Both the position numbers and the translations under genes were made by a program. DNA of 31,210 nucleotides from a virus, in the IMG/VR virus record IMGVR_UViG_3300047550_001289, positions 1 to 31,210 of that record, one strand, 5' to 3'. Of the stretch, positions 16,326 to 20,759 are shown piece after piece. Under the pieces are notes generated by a model that did not search any database, was not told the origin of the DNA, and worked only from the letters and a program-made list of their open reading frames with translations. The stretch's first letter is position 1, and every line of letters begins with the position of its first letter.

Positions 16326-16553
16326 ATGGAAAACACAAAAACGCCTTTCGAGCTGGGTTATGAAGCCTGTCAGCAATTCAACTACTGGGGAACAAACGAT
16401 GAAAACCCCTATTGGAACAACACAGATGAGTTTAAAGAATGGGAAAAGGGATGGTCTTGGTACATCACTCAGACGATTGAATGGGAACGTGACGAAGCAA
16501 TGGATATTTCAGATAGAGAATATCATGACCGCCAAGAATACTGCAACGATTAA
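16326..16553 (+). CDS. RMF-like small protein (ribosome modulation factor pattern)
   Basis: A 75-residue acidic, Trp-rich protein: PFELGYEACQQFNYWGTNDE, then NPYWNNTDEFKEWEKGW. The spacing of GYEA, NPY and W..GW follows the ribosome modulation factor family, whose bacterial members dimerise ribosomes and which has many uncharacterised phage relatives. It is the first early gene, with its own promoter, so it may act on the host translation machinery soon after entry; this is inference. It is more acidic than cellular RMF, which argues against simple rRNA binding. Confidence 0.45.
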   Translation: MENTKTPFELGYEACQQFNYWGTNDENPYWNNTDEFKEWEKGWSWYITQTIEWERDEAMDISDREYHDRQEYCND

Positions 16554-16561
16554 AAAATAAA

Positions 16562-16593
16562 TTTGGAAATCTGAAATCTTTGTTTTAATATTG
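16562..16593 (+). promoter_or_regulatory. Promoter for structured RNA / initiator operon
   Basis: TTTG (16562-16565), 20 bases, then TAATATTG (16586-16593), one mismatch from TAnnTTTG. By the geometry of the other promoters the transcript would begin near 16598. Unlike them it is 140 bases from the next credible start codon. Confidence 0.5.
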
Positions 16594-16597
16594 CATA

Positions 16598-16733
16598 TCG
16601 GAACAACAGGACTTCAACCCCCTGCCGAGAAAAGAAGATGAAAAAAGAACTTTACCAAACGCCCTACACAAGTACTATGCGGCTGCAATCTTCCAGCCGG
16701 GTTGAACATAGGAAAGTGTGGGGCGTTTTGTTT
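16598..16733 (+). ncRNA. Candidate structured RNA (small RNA or leader)
   Basis: The expected transcript starts with a short hairpin (TCGG 16598-16601 with CCGA 16625-16628; CAGG 16607-16610 with CCTG 16621-16624). An A-rich linker follows, then a compact fold. P1 pairs 16657-16669 with 16716-16728, 13 bp with one G-U. P2 pairs CTATG (16675-16679) with CATAG (16707-16711). P3 pairs CGGCTG (16680-16685) with CAGCCG (16694-16699). Between P1 and P2 lies an AAGTA/GAAA internal loop, and a 7-base bulge GGTTGAA separates P3 from P2. P1 is followed by TTTTGTTT, so the element may also end transcription. The ATG at 16638 inside it would give an unconvincing peptide. No known RNA class is recognised. 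Confidence 0.5.
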
Positions 16734-16943
16734 ATGATTAAATTACCAAAACGAATGCCGATTGACATCTGCGACAGATGCATCGAAGAACTTTCCCAGC
16801 AGATTGGAAAGTTGGAAGTTGACTTCCTGACAAAAAAAGTAAAAAAGCACGTTTACGATTACCGCAAAATGAACCTTGATTTTGAAGTGTTGTATTGGAA
16901 CCAATGCAAAAAATTAACCTTGAAAGGAAAGCCAAATGAATAA
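16734..16943 (+). CDS. Small protein, unknown
   Basis: A 69-residue protein (MIKLPKRMPIDICDRCIEEL) with one CDRC pair and a basic helical second half (LTKKVKKHVYDYRKMNLDF). I use ATG 16734 because the upstream extension to 16638 would run through the paired RNA element and reads like random sequence. It overlaps the initiator gene by eight bases. Its position directly before the initiator suggests a role in replication control, but I do not recognise it. Confidence 0.5.
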   Translation: MIKLPKRMPIDICDRCIEELSQQIGKLEVDFLTKKVKKHVYDYRKMNLDFEVLYWNQCKKLTLKGKPNE

Positions 16944-17736
16944 CGGCTGGATAAAGATACACCGTTGCATGATGGATAACCCATTGTACCATTCCGAACC
17001 ATTTAACAGAACCCATGCTTGGATTGACCTGTTATTGTTAGCCAATAGCAATGATAACTTTTTTTACAAGCGTGGCATCCGTGTCAACATTCAGCGTGGA
17101 CAAATTGGCCACGATGCTGATACTTTGGCCAAAAGATGGAAGTGGTCAAGAGGTAAGGTGGAAAGATACTTGACTATGCTTGAAAGTGATGGCATGATAG
17201 TAAGGCAAAAAAGCAACGTAACTACCTTAATATCAATATGTAAGTACGATGACTATCAGGCAAACGATAAAGCAAATAGTAAGGCAAATGATAAAACAAA
17301 CGGACAGCAAACAGTAAAGCAAACGGACACTAACAAGAATGATAAGAATTATAAGAATGAAAAGAATGAAGAGAATATATCTTTCCTGCGTTTTTGGAAT
17401 TTGTATGATAAGAAGATTGACAGGCAGGCATGTGAACGCAAATGGAACAAGATAGACAGTGAGCTGCATGAATTGATTTTTGCTCACGTTGCTGATTATG
17501 TTGCATCTACTCCGCAGGTGCAATACAGAAAAAACCCTGAAACATACCTAAACAATCGTAGCTGGGAAAATGAAATCGTAATGGAAGCAAAGCCAACAGA
17601 AAAAAAATACAAGGTAGAAACTGAATGGGCTTTCGGCCTTATCAAAGATGAATTTGAATCCCTTGAAGAAGCACAGGCCAAAGTTGAATGGTATAACAAC
17701 CGTAAAGACGCATCATTTAGAGCAAAAATAGTATGA
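16936..17736 (+). CDS. Replication initiator-like protein (phage O / DnaD type)
   Basis: A 266-residue protein. The N-terminal winged-helix (about 1-105) starts NNGWIKIHRCMMDNPLYHS and contains TLAKRWKWSRGKVERYLTML, a form typical of phage replication organizers that bind the origin. A low-complexity Asn/Lys linker (about 110-150) follows. A C-terminal module around SFLRFWNLYDKKIDRQACER and NPETYLNNRSWENE matches the region of such proteins that recruits the helicase. ATGA overlap with the primase-helicase gene fits that partnership. AAGGAAAGCCAA before ATG 16936 is a modest ribosome site. The linker DNA is itself repetitive and may be the origin. Confidence 0.7.
   Translation: MNNGWIKIHRCMMDNPLYHSEPFNRTHAWIDLLLLANSNDNFFYKRGIRVNIQRGQIGHDADTLAKRWKWSRGKVERYLTMLESDGMIVRQKSNVTTLISICKYDDYQANDKANSKANDKTNGQQTVKQTDTNKNDKNYKNEKNEENISFLRFWNLYDKKIDRQACERKWNKIDSELHELIFAHVADYVASTPQVQYRKNPETYLNNRSWENEIVMEAKPTEKKYKVETEWAFGLIKDEFESLEEAQAKVEWYNNRKDASFRAKIV
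17261..17379 (+). repeat. Iteron-like repeats and AT-rich 9-mers, candidate origin
   Basis: Inside the initiator gene, six CAAA-headed units of 11-12 bases (CAAACGATAAAG, CAAATAGTAAGG, CAAATGATAAAA, CAAACGGACAG, CAAACAGTAAAG, CAAACGGACACT) run from 17261 to 17331. Five 9-base units (AAGAATGAT, AAGAATTAT, AAGAATGAA twice, GAGAATATA) run from 17335 to 17379. Protein-binding repeats followed by easily melted AT-rich repeats within an initiator gene is the lambda-O origin layout. The repeats also encode the linker, so protein-level low complexity is the alternative. Confidence 0.5.
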
Positions 17737-19364
17737 GTTACGCATTTCACAATATCGAAATTCCACAGGGTAAAACCACAGGAGAGGTGCAAACACTTTG
17801 TCCGCAGTGTAGCCATACACGGAAAAAGAAAACAGACCGCTGCCTGTCGGTTAACCTTGATAAGAAAGCATGGATTTGTCATCATTGCGGTTGGAAGGGT
17901 GCAATAATTGACCGCCCGGAAGTAATCAAGTACGAAGTGCCGGAATGGAAAAACACCACCGCACTATCCGACAAGGTGCTAAAATGGTTTGAAAGTCGCA
18001 GAATAACGGCTGCCACCGTCAACAAGATGCAAATCACCGAACAGCTGGAATGGATGCCACAGGTCAGCAAAGAAGTAAACTGCATCTGTTTCAATTACTT
18101 TGAGGATGGTGTGCTTAAAAACGTGAAATACAGGGATGGTGCAAAGCATTTCAAGATGCACAAAGGCGCAGAGCTGATACCATACAACATTGACTGCCTT
18201 GCAAACGCTACTGAATTGTGGATAGTGGAAGGCGAAATGGATGCACTTGCACTTATCGAAGCAGGAATTGAAAATGTGATTAGTGTACCAAATGGCGCAC
18301 AGCCAAACCTAACTTTCTTTGACCGCTTCATGCCGGCATTTGACCACATCGAAAAGATACACATTGCAGTTGATAATGATGCACCCGGTATAGAATTACG
18401 CAATGCCATTGCAGACAGGTTTGGAAAAGACAAATGTAATTACATTGTATTCACTGATTGCAAGGATGCAAACGAGTATTTGCTGCTGAATGGTGCGTTT
18501 GCCCTGAGAGATGCCTGTTTGAATTTTACAGAATTCCCCATGATTGGTGTGTTCGGAGTTACCGATTACCTGACAGAGATTGAAAACCTTTACAACTATG
18601 GATTGCCGGAAGGTGCGAAAACAGGAATGCTTGGTTTTGATAAATTCTTGTCATTTCATAAAGGTTATTTGACTACGATTACAGGCATACCCGGACATGG
18701 TAAATCGGACTTTTTGGATCATGTGCTGCTGAAACTATTGCAAAGACATCAATGGAAAGGTGCGTTTTATTCACCTGAAAATAGACCAGTTGAATTGCAT
18801 ATCAGCAAGATGCTGCGTAAGTTGACCAAGCGGCCATTTATGGGGCAGCACCGCATGAACCAGCAGGAAATATACGAAGCACTTTACCTGCTTGAAAACA
18901 GCATATTTTTTGTCAAACCTGAAAAGGACTTCTCACTTGACAGCATACTTGCAAAAGTTGCCGAACTTAAAAACCGCAAGAATATAGACTGGTTTGTCAT
19001 TGATGCGTGGAATAAATTAGAACACCAATACGCTGAAAGTGAAACTAAATATATCGGGCAGTCGCTTGACAAGATTGTAAATTTCTGCGAAAGGTACAAC
19101 GTGCATTGTTTTTTGGTGGCACATCCACGCAAGATTTCAAAAAACGCTGATGGACTTTATGAAGTGCCGAGCCTTTATGATATAGCCGGGTCTGCTAACT
19201 TTTATAATAAGACAGATAATGGACTGACTGTGTACCGGAATTTCAAAAATAATTCAGTGGAAGTTTACATCCAAAAGGTAAAGTTCAGCCACTGGGGTGA
19301 AGTCGGAATGCAGAAATTTAACTATGATATTCCAACCGGGTTATATATTGAAACTAATGTTTAA
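17733..19364 (+). CDS. Bifunctional primase-helicase, T7 gp4 / Twinkle-like
   Basis: Makes primers and unwinds DNA at the fork. The protein has 543 residues. The N-terminal zinc ribbon has C23/C26 (LCPQC) and C49/C52 (ICHHCGW). The TOPRIM core has E166 and D170 (WIVEGEMDALAL) and the DND acids 214-216 (IAVDNDAPG). The DnaB/RecA-type helicase has Walker A GIPGHGKSD (318-326), a segment WKGAFYSPENRP (341-352), Walker B WFVIDAW (420-426) and VHCFLVAHPRK (about 452-462) as the H4-like motif. All key residues appear intact. It starts with an ATGA overlap at the initiator gene. Confidence 0.9.
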   Translation: MSYAFHNIEIPQGKTTGEVQTLCPQCSHTRKKKTDRCLSVNLDKKAWICHHCGWKGAIIDRPEVIKYEVPEWKNTTALSDKVLKWFESRRITAATVNKMQITEQLEWMPQVSKEVNCICFNYFEDGVLKNVKYRDGAKHFKMHKGAELIPYNIDCLANATELWIVEGEMDALALIEAGIENVISVPNGAQPNLTFFDRFMPAFDHIEKIHIAVDNDAPGIELRNAIADRFGKDKCNYIVFTDCKDANEYLLLNGAFALRDACLNFTEFPMIGVFGVTDYLTEIENLYNYGLPEGAKTGMLGFDKFLSFHKGYLTTITGIPGHGKSDFLDHVLLKLLQRHQWKGAFYSPENRPVELHISKMLRKLTKRPFMGQHRMNQQEIYEALYLLENSIFFVKPEKDFSLDSILAKVAELKNRKNIDWFVIDAWNKLEHQYAESETKYIGQSLDKIVNFCERYNVHCFLVAHPRKISKNADGLYEVPSLYDIAGSANFYNKTDNGLTVYRNFKNNSVEVYIQKVKFSHWGEVGMQKFNYDIPTGLYIETNV

Positions 19365-19381: not shown

Positions 19382-20353
19382 ATGCGACACGGCAGTTTAT
19401 TTTCAGGAATCGGTGGGTTTGACCTTGCAGCCGAATGGATGGGGTGGGAGAATGTGTTCCATTGCGAATGGATGGAGTTTCCACGAAAGGTATTGGAATA
19501 CTACTGGCCTGATGCTGACAGCCACGTTGATATATGTAAAACTGATTTCAAAAAATATGCAAACAGAATTGATATTCTCACAGGGGGATTTCCCTGCCAA
19601 CCATTCTCCCTTGCAGGAAAGCGAAAGGGAACAGATGATGAACGCTACTTGTGGGGCGAAATGCTACGAGCAATACAAGAGATTAAACCCACATGGGTCA
19701 TTGCAGAAAATGTCTTTGGTATCGTCAATATTGATGGCGGACTGGTATTCGAGCAGGTGTGCCTTGACTTGGAAAATGAAGGGTACGAAGTTCAACCGTT
19801 TATTATTCCAGCTGCGGCCAAAAACGCACCACACCGCAGAGACAGAGTCTGGTTTGTTGCCCACACCAACAGCAGGGATTGTAAATGGATCAGAAATGAA
19901 AAAGAATATGATTCCAAGAGGGTTAGGTGCAATGGCAAAATTAAGCATGTTACCCACCCCGACAGTAATGGACAGCACCAATGCAACGGCAACAATGAAA
20001 TCAACCCAAGTGAAGGAAGGATCAATGCACTCGGTAACGCTGAACAGGGCAATGGCAATGGGAATGCTACCGACACCGAGAGTATTTGCATACAAGGACA
20101 GCGCAACGGACAGGGGCAAGGGCAATTTAGGGGAAGTGACTGGAGCAGGTTCCCAACTCAATCCCCGATTTGTAGCGGAGATGATGGGCTTCCCACCCAA
20201 CTGGACGGAATTACCTTTTCAAAGTGGAGAAACGAGTCAATCAAAGGATATGGAAATGCCATAGTGCCACAAATAGCATACGAACTTTTCAAAATAATAG
20301 AACATGAGAATAAAACTAAAAGCACCACAGCACAACAGCAGGACAACATTTAG
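19382..20353 (+). CDS. C5 cytosine DNA methyltransferase (orphan)
   Basis: Adds a methyl group to C5 of cytosine in DNA, probably to protect phage DNA or mark it for control. The protein has 323 residues with the family motifs in order: motif I FSGIGGFD (7-14), catalytic PCQPFS (71-76, Cys72), ENV (109-111), RRDRVW (151-156), a Gly/Asn-rich target recognition region (about 162-265) and motif X GYGNAIVPQIAYELF (about 289-303). No restriction partner is encoded nearby. The 3' end overlaps the DnaA-like gene by 50 bases. The recognition region is also open in the +1 frame, listed separately. The specificity cannot be read from sequence. Confidence 0.9.
   Translation: MRHGSLFSGIGGFDLAAEWMGWENVFHCEWMEFPRKVLEYYWPDADSHVDICKTDFKKYANRIDILTGGFPCQPFSLAGKRKGTDDERYLWGEMLRAIQEIKPTWVIAENVFGIVNIDGGLVFEQVCLDLENEGYEVQPFIIPAAAKNAPHRRDRVWFVAHTNSRDCKWIRNEKEYDSKRVRCNGKIKHVTHPDSNGQHQCNGNNEINPSEGRINALGNAEQGNGNGNATDTESICIQGQRNGQGQGQFRGSDWSRFPTQSPICSGDDGLPTQLDGITFSKWRNESIKGYGNAIVPQIAYELFKIIEHENKTKSTTAQQQDNI
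19413..20264 (+). CDS. Overlapping +1-frame ORF inside the methyltransferase gene
   Basis: A 283-codon frame, shifted +1 relative to the methyltransferase and open from GTG 19413 (first ATG 19452) to TAG at 20264. It does not read like a random shadow. It contains three LPTP units (LLPTPTAGI, MLPTPTVMD, MLPTPRVFA) and ends SQLNPRFVAEMMGFPPNWTE, sequences that, from memory, recur in proteins from other phages and Bacteroidota genomes. The canonical methyltransferase frame covers the same DNA with all its own motifs. It may be a true overprinted gene, an alternative C-terminus reached by frameshift, or a frame kept open by DNA-level conservation. No ribosome site is evident. Confidence 0.4.
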   Translation: MGLTLQPNGWGGRMCSIANGWSFHERYWNTTGLMLTATLIYVKLISKNMQTELIFSQGDFPANHSPLQESEREQMMNATCGAKCYEQYKRLNPHGSLQKMSLVSSILMADWYSSRCALTWKMKGTKFNRLLFQLRPKTHHTAETESGLLPTPTAGIVNGSEMKKNMIPRGLGAMAKLSMLPTPTVMDSTNATATMKSTQVKEGSMHSVTLNRAMAMGMLPTPRVFAYKDSATDRGKGNLGEVTGAGSQLNPRFVAEMMGFPPNWTELPFQSGETSQSKDMEMP

Positions 20354-20759
20354 GCGCAGCGAAATTGAAAGGCTCAATGAAGTCATTTATCACCAGTCAA
20401 TCCGCATTGCAGAACTTGAAAGGATGCTGAAAATGGACACAATGAACAAGGATGAATACTACATAAAAGCAGCACACATGGCAATTAAGTCTGTGTTCAC
20501 TCATTATCAGCCTGAATATATCACCATTGAAACCCGGAAGCGTGAAATTGTGGAAATGCGTCAGATATTTCAATGGCTATGCCGCAATAAAATGACACTT
20601 TCGTTGCACAAAATCGGTCAAATATGCGGTGGTCGTGACCATTCAACAATCATTCATTCGTGTAAGGTGGTTGACAACCTGATGATGTATGACCGCAGGT
20701 TTGCAAAAAACCTTGAAAGCGTGAGAAATAAGTTTGAGGAGTTTGCAGAACAGATTTAA
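20304..20759 (+). CDS. DnaA domain IV-like DNA-binding protein
   Basis: A 151-residue protein. The N-terminal part (about 15-50) is a charged helix (RSEIERLNEVIYHQSIRIAE). The C-terminal part carries the DnaA domain IV pattern: KREIVEMRQIFQWLCRNKMT (about 79-98), then LHKIGQICGGRDHSTIIHSC (about 101-120). The GGRDHSTIIH box is the DnaA signature that contacts DnaA boxes. The AAA+ domain of DnaA is missing, so it may bind origin DNA or compete with host DnaA without ATP-driven melting. It overlaps the methyltransferase gene by 50 bases. Confidence 0.75.
   Translation: MRIKLKAPQHNSRTTFRRSEIERLNEVIYHQSIRIAELERMLKMDTMNKDEYYIKAAHMAIKSVFTHYQPEYITIETRKREIVEMRQIFQWLCRNKMTLSLHKIGQICGGRDHSTIIHSCKVVDNLMMYDRRFAKNLESVRNKFEEFAEQI

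Follow-up and report, generated by a model that had tools for sequence, protein, structure and literature searches.

A covarying, double-pseudoknotted RNA before the replication genes of Bacteroidota-type phages, with the layout of a candidate translation-sensitive attenuator

What does a folded RNA do when it stands between a promoter and the replication genes of a phage? The question is raised by a stretch of 31,210 bases, a single virus record (IMGVR_UViG_3300047550_001289) that we call the window. A sequence-only reading had drawn a structured RNA there, framed by a promoter and a U-rich end, and had offered two alternatives for it, a free small RNA or a leader controlling the replication operon through attenuation. 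Folding recovered every part of that drawing: the 13-bp outer stem with its single G-U pair, the AAGUA/GAAA internal loop, the inner stems of 5 and 6 bp, the 7-base bulge and the U-rich end after the outer stem. The folding energy of positions 16655-16735 was -34.6 kcal/mol against -19.96 (sd 3.27) for shuffled sequences (z -4.48; 0 of 200 shuffles equal to it). Beyond the drawing, there are a 5' hairpin (P1), two pseudoknots (PK1 and PK2) and an invariant AUG (AUG1). It is thus near certain that the folded structure is real, and it is larger than first drawn. The features of the locus are the following:

16562-16594, + strand: promoter of the Bacteroidota type (TTTG, 20 bases, TAATATTGC), from sequence; transcript start expected near 16597
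16597-16733, + strand: whole RNA element, from its 5' end to the end of the U-run; model R1, whose training relatives include the window's own RNA type, matches 16597-16732 with 120.7 bits
16599-16627, + strand: 5' hairpin P1; CGG/CCG pairs 16599-16601 with 16625-16627, and CAGG/CCUG pairs 16607-16610 with 16621-16624
16613-16619, + strand: 5' strand of PK1, UUCAACC, in the P1 loop; partner 16700-16706; from covariation and a re-pairing test
16634-16639, + strand: 5' strand of PK2, GAAGAU; partner the apical loop 16688-16693; overlaps AUG1 by two bases in the window
16638-16640, + strand: AUG1, start of a leader or N-terminal ORF (16638-16943, 101 aa)
16657-16669, + strand: 5' arm of the outer stem P2; partner 16716-16728; from folding and covariation
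16670-16674, + strand: internal-loop strand AAGUA, opposite GAAA at 16712-16715; from folding
16675-16711, + strand: inner stem P3, 16675-16679 with 16707-16711; all five pairs covary
16680-16699, + strand: apical stem P4 (16680-16685 with 16694-16699) and its loop, of which 16688-16693 is the 3' strand of PK2
16700-16706, + strand: 3' strand of PK1, GGUUGAA, the 7-base bulge of the drawing; from covariation and a re-pairing test
16716-16733, + strand: 3' arm of P2 running into the U-run (UUUUGUUU at 16726-16733), a terminator-like end; from sequence, stem and T-run being kept among relatives
16734-16943, + strand: small downstream ORF of 69 aa from the next ATG (ATG2), in frame with AUG1
16936-19364, + strand: replication genes behind the leader, a DnaD-like helicase loader (16936-17736) and a primase/helicase (17733-19364)

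The ORF at 16638-16943 used as a query led to 12 viral contigs, a DNA pattern for the 5' hairpin to 96 stretches, and two further patterns to additional variants; among the 75 stretches from one added pattern, four (L208, L210, L213 and L217) were judged by eye not to be members. The resulting 156 occurrences (overlapping loci of one contig counted separately) correspond to 65 distinct sequences, compared up to 30 bases past the U-run, and to 51 distinct RNAs. A covariance model built from 28 relatives matched in 52 of the 54 sources given to it, both misses being named phage records with related primases, and recovered a divergent relative outside the training set (L057) with 105.3 bits. Blastn searches of named phages with the window element and with a divergent relative gave no match. 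In cellular genome contigs the pattern scan returned 12 stretches, which were rejected as members: script filters found the 3' domain in none of them (five failed at the first step and seven at the second), and the one from Bacteroidota scored only 19.9 bits with the covariance model. A search of 395 Bacteroidota genomes gave no covariance model match under stricter filters, which lose weak matches. We provisionally call these phages Bacteroidota-type, a label taken from the promoter type and from related primases in Flavobacterium and other phages.

Compensatory changes, which according to the sequence-only reading would support the structured RNA if seen in its three stems, turned out to be abundant once relatives had been aligned with a covariance model. 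Across 51 distinct model-aligned rows, 96.0% of the 1874 cells of P1 to P4 and PK1 are paired. Changes on both sides occur in 19 of the 37 pairs and amount to 207 cells, counts that treat related sequences as separate, the independent events being fewer. None of 500 shuffles reached any of the five measures, and sliding the partners by 1-3 columns left a pairing of only 33-45%. Both sides have changed in 7 of the 13 pairs of P2 and in all five of P3, and the CAGG/CCUG helix of P1 becomes CACG/CGUG in 10 of the 51 distinct RNAs. PK1 is paired in 93.4% of cells, with double-sided changes in four of its seven pairs, and constitutes an independent result, since the alignment was fitted to P1-P4 and not to PK1; its own-sequence total was reached in 0 of 5000 re-pairings. 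Because PK2 loses register in the model alignment, it was tested by pairing the pre-AUG strand of each RNA with its own apical loop and with the apical loops of the others. The mean was 5.2 pairs with its own loop and 3.5 with others, and again none of 5000 re-pairings reached the observed total. A PK2 helix of at least five Watson-Crick pairs exists in 50 of the 51 distinct RNAs, and in the remaining one (L199) CCAAG/CUUGG was found by eye. The pairing types turn over completely among relatives (GAAGAU/AUCUUC, CCAAG/CUUGG, GGAAG/CUUCC, CAGAG/CUCUG, CCGAC/GUCGG). The opposite strand adopts a similar fold, which is expected of any inverted repeat, but its long stem is interrupted; G-U pairs are common on the + strand across the 51 distinct RNAs, and the RNA is therefore assigned to that strand.

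The AAGUA/GAAA internal loop presumably resembles the bulged-G (loop E) motif; variants are GAUUA in L148 and, on the other side, GAAC in L089 and L116. Two relatives (L206 and L216) carry AAUUCGG before the 5' hairpin and GCCGCAAUU after it, which may lengthen P1.

No family of Rfam 15 matched in the window at gathering score, and ten loci bearing relatives yielded only one tRNA elsewhere. The best sub-threshold match, DUF3800-VIII (RF03075) at 16658-16727, was rejected as chance level (16.9 bits, where the gathering score is 40.2; E 1.3). As for riboswitches, conserved unpaired bases are present, and the gene context is that of phage replication genes. SAM-II is a pseudoknot, and no Rfam match to it was found in the window at gathering score. 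In the literature covered, from which subscription journals and preprints fall outside, no title or abstract start describes the element, those on phage or Bacteroidetes leader RNAs or structured RNAs included. The pseudoknotted RNAs form a family whose covariation is very strong and which Rfam 15 lacks at gathering score, and the earlier description as an undescribed structured RNA is borne out by both properties.

The surroundings of the element were compared with the window proteins at 40 loci. Replication-block genes lie ahead of it in the same direction at 31; of the nine loci lacking such a match, eight extend only 207-2093 bases ahead. In the ninth (L212) there is a primase/helicase match 561-1145 bases beyond the element, but on the other strand, which would reflect a rearrangement or a misassembly. 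Behind the element, an HNH gene on the opposite strand is found at 37 loci, and the other three (L089, L102 and L215) extend only 482-745 bases on that side. A gene matching the one that had been labelled RMF-like occurs at 34 of the 40 loci; the label itself found no support in Pfam, where 16326-16553 has no match even at E<=10, and the gene has only a weak match to a PHROG of unknown function. The replication genes of the window match phrog_2514 (5.5e-28) and phrog_239 (6.8e-94), and the 69-aa ORF at 16734-16943 gave no Pfam family above the cut-off. Elsewhere in the window, a phage protein encoded at 20304-20759, oriented like the replication genes, contains the C-terminal domain of bacterial DnaA (Pfam 1.1e-17). 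The tRNA found among the ten loci is a gene in a phage contig of the same group (L156:4646-4716, - strand; Rfam tRNA, 49.5 bits).

The promoter, placed at 16562-16593 by the sequence-only reading, coincides with a Bacteroidota-type match at 16562-16594, and the pattern is kept upstream of the relatives. A -7-like TAnn(n)T(T/C)G is present in all 39 distinct upstream sequences, a loose pattern with no chance control, and 37 of them also have a TTG 17-23 bases before this box. The consensus for Bacteroidota promoters is TTTG/TAnnTTTG in the passages cited (PMC7366714). At the other end of the element, a GC-rich stem directly before a T-run is kept despite strong sequence change in the stem among relatives. 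A generic intrinsic-terminator scan found none here, since it allows only loops of 3-8 bases, and the loop of P2 measures 46 bases in the window and is structured, unlike that of a textbook terminator. The U-run is interrupted in some members (UUUUGUUU, UUUUACUUUUU).

AUG1 is found in 51 of 51 distinct RNAs (in L199 by eye), in a position ranging from a two-base overlap with PK2 to four bases after it. Its frame has no stop up to the U-run in any of the 65 distinct sequences, while the other two frames are open in 0 and 1 of them. Under a null that preserves column make-up, 65% of simulated rows are open, with a probability of about 10^-1.7 (0.02) over the four frame configurations; the open frame is thus supportive but not proof, its significance under this conservative null being moderate, suggestive rather than decisive. 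Among relatives, the frame set by AUG1 falls differently on the RNA, so that only the openness is kept and no peptide sequence is conserved throughout. The sequence-only reading had proposed that codon-level conservation in the 16638 frame, together with a lack of covariation, would refute a structured RNA. The outcome was mixed, the frame being always open but the amino acids not kept and covariation abundant.

The distance from AUG1 to the U-run is 82-89 bases. In 32 of 40 distinct sequences, no more than 8 bases separate the beginning of the U-run from that of the next ATG, leaving no space for another promoter, so that the operon would have to be transcribed through the element. This ATG is in frame with AUG1 in 60 of the 65 distinct sequences. 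The component lengths vary by single bases (compared with L147, L177 has one more base before the stem and one T less in the run), and the distance between AUG1 and the next ATG, which comes in 10 combinations of lengths, is a multiple of three in 7 of them; the in-frame ATG2 fails in the other three combinations and in L139 and L165. An out-of-frame next ATG was seen in 5 of 55 distinct sequences, and in these the ORF still crosses the U-run and ends 14-44 bases beyond that ATG. In L139 (position 4061) and L165, whose RNA is of the same type as that of L096, the U-run has nine T instead of eight, which puts the next ATG out of frame; the extra T could be an error of assembly, or it may point to the polymerase slipping on the T-run.

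The fold, both pseudoknots, the conserved promoter, the U-run, the invariant AUG1, the open frame and the position of the element were all established computationally. The layout is of the pyrBI type, with a leader ORF that crosses the stem and the U-run and a GC-rich stem that abuts the latter. A stem and U-run crossed by an in-frame leader ORF is the layout of translation-controlled attenuation, with precedents in pyrBI and metA, and for this reason we favour, with a probability of about one half, a cis-acting leader that attenuates the early replication operon in a translation-sensitive way, terminating when folded and read through when translated. Of the two alternatives offered at the outset, the leader fits better than a purely free small RNA, and the spacing between the U-run and the next ATG points the same way.

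In such an attenuator, transcription would begin just 5' of the P1 hairpin. If no ribosome arrived in time, the nascent RNA would compact into the double-pseudoknotted fold, in which PK2 would mask the bases just upstream of AUG1; P2 would form directly before the U-run, and RNA polymerase would presumably halt, releasing a small RNA of about 135 bases, which may be a by-product or a second product. If instead a ribosome initiated at AUG1, beside an A-rich unpaired linker, and translated through the fold, P2 would be blocked and the replication operon transcribed and translated, the leader-coded residues usually being joined in frame to the N-terminus of the first small protein. The two states would compete, with the balance perhaps set by the supply of ribosomes, by a protein of the phage or by a ligand. 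Seven truncated folds, computed ignoring pseudoknots, revealed no recurring antiterminator helix. In E. coli, a terminator lying less than 100 bp into a coding region remains functional, a range that would take in the 82-89 bases of the phage leader; over so short a stretch, however, the leading ribosome is unlikely to draw level with RNA polymerase (PMC4824070, cited portion). Coupling in the phage leader would therefore need a pause or fast initiation.

The alternatives can be ordered by how well they survive. The main product might be a free trans-acting small RNA, with the operon reached by leaky readthrough and the open frame a side effect or due to chance. Its own promoter and U-run are kept among relatives, sequence conservation in P1 and in the AAGUA/GAAA loop exceeds what pairing needs, and the RNA type switches between near-identical flanks, all of which would suit such a molecule; nevertheless, we consider it unlikely, given that the next ATG follows the U-run directly in most members, that AUG1 and the open frame are always retained and that no target is known.

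It is rather improbable that the leader is purely translational, the fold hiding AUG1 or presenting it to the ribosome on a protein or metabolite cue, without termination, and the U-run being merely a low-structure start region for ATG2. PK2 does overlap AUG1 or end within four bases of it, and Bacteroidia ribosomes fail to recognise Shine-Dalgarno sequences, as stated in the cited part of PMC9976891, so local structure should weigh more; on the other hand, the long GC-rich stem and its adjoining T-run are kept through strong sequence change of the stem.

The switching of RNA types bears on a further possibility. Between L097 and L113, the upstream 200 bases are 99% identical, the RNA 71% and the downstream 200 bases 98%, and the RNA type looks as if it had been exchanged as a unit. 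Among 11 pairs whose flanks share 90%/95% identity or more, the RNA window falls below 80% identity in one, three more lying at 0.80, 0.80 and 0.82; control windows do so in 7 of 975 cases. With such small numbers, these comparisons are only suggestive of RNA swapping between phages. We regard as doubtful the idea that the RNA is a swappable specificity cassette, in which the terminated RNA would pair with the nascent leader of another phage, co-infecting or arriving later, and make it terminate, providing a diversifying superinfection immunity or incompatibility; the differing PK1 and PK2 types between near-identical flanks would then be explained by cross-phage RNA pairing that selects for diversity.

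An RNA antiterminator like the put sites of phage HK022, a folded leader that would make RNA polymerase ignore later terminators of the early operon, is very unlikely. The location at the head of the early operon, right after the promoter, and the two compact conserved domains would fit, but a U-run resembling that of a terminator closes the element, and put hairpins are not known to have pseudoknots or an ORF. Finally, that 16638-16943 is a plain gene with an incidental fold is a negligible prospect, since, in spite of the frame being open in all members, it is refuted by covariation (both sides having changed in 207 cells), the reading frame differs between similar RNAs, and the ORF begins only after the 5' hairpin and one strand of each pseudoknot.

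The RNA sits where the replication genes of uncultured Bacteroidota-type phages would be controlled. If the fold-or-translate attenuator is correct, it would be a compact natural device for sensing whether a ribosome has engaged, in a group with ribosomes blind to Shine-Dalgarno sequences, and early phage gene control in Bacteroidota would become testable with one reporter. The changing pairing types also offer a case for testing RNA-based phage incompatibility.

By analogy, the mode of action would be like that of pyrBI or metA attenuation, the element itself belonging to no known sequence family. In pyrBI of E. coli, the pyrL ORF runs across the terminator; no pseudoknots are known there, nor any sequence relation to the phage element. 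As the cited part of PMC5021804 describes it, an intrinsic terminator lies ahead of the ribosome that reads this leader ORF, and by advancing behind the polymerase the ribosome prevents the hairpin. The phage differs in that its ORF is usually fused to the first gene and in that its terminator loop is itself a structured domain. A terminator inside a coding region is also found in brfA of Bacillus subtilis, where it gives rise to a non-stop message, as is the case for arfA of E. coli (PMC6881298, in the part cited); unlike in the phage layout, the brfA terminator lies late in the ORF, at about codon 62 of 71, and is part of the tmRNA-dependent control of a rescue factor. In metA of Sinorhizobium meliloti, a validated terminator stands between AUG1 and an in-frame AUG2, and termination releases a small RNA, an arrangement similar to that of the phage (PMC9373788, cited section). 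However, in metA, according to the same section, a riboswitch (SAM-II) precedes the terminator and translation starts from AUG2 and not from AUG1, whereas in the phage element both pseudoknots enter the insert of the terminator stem itself.
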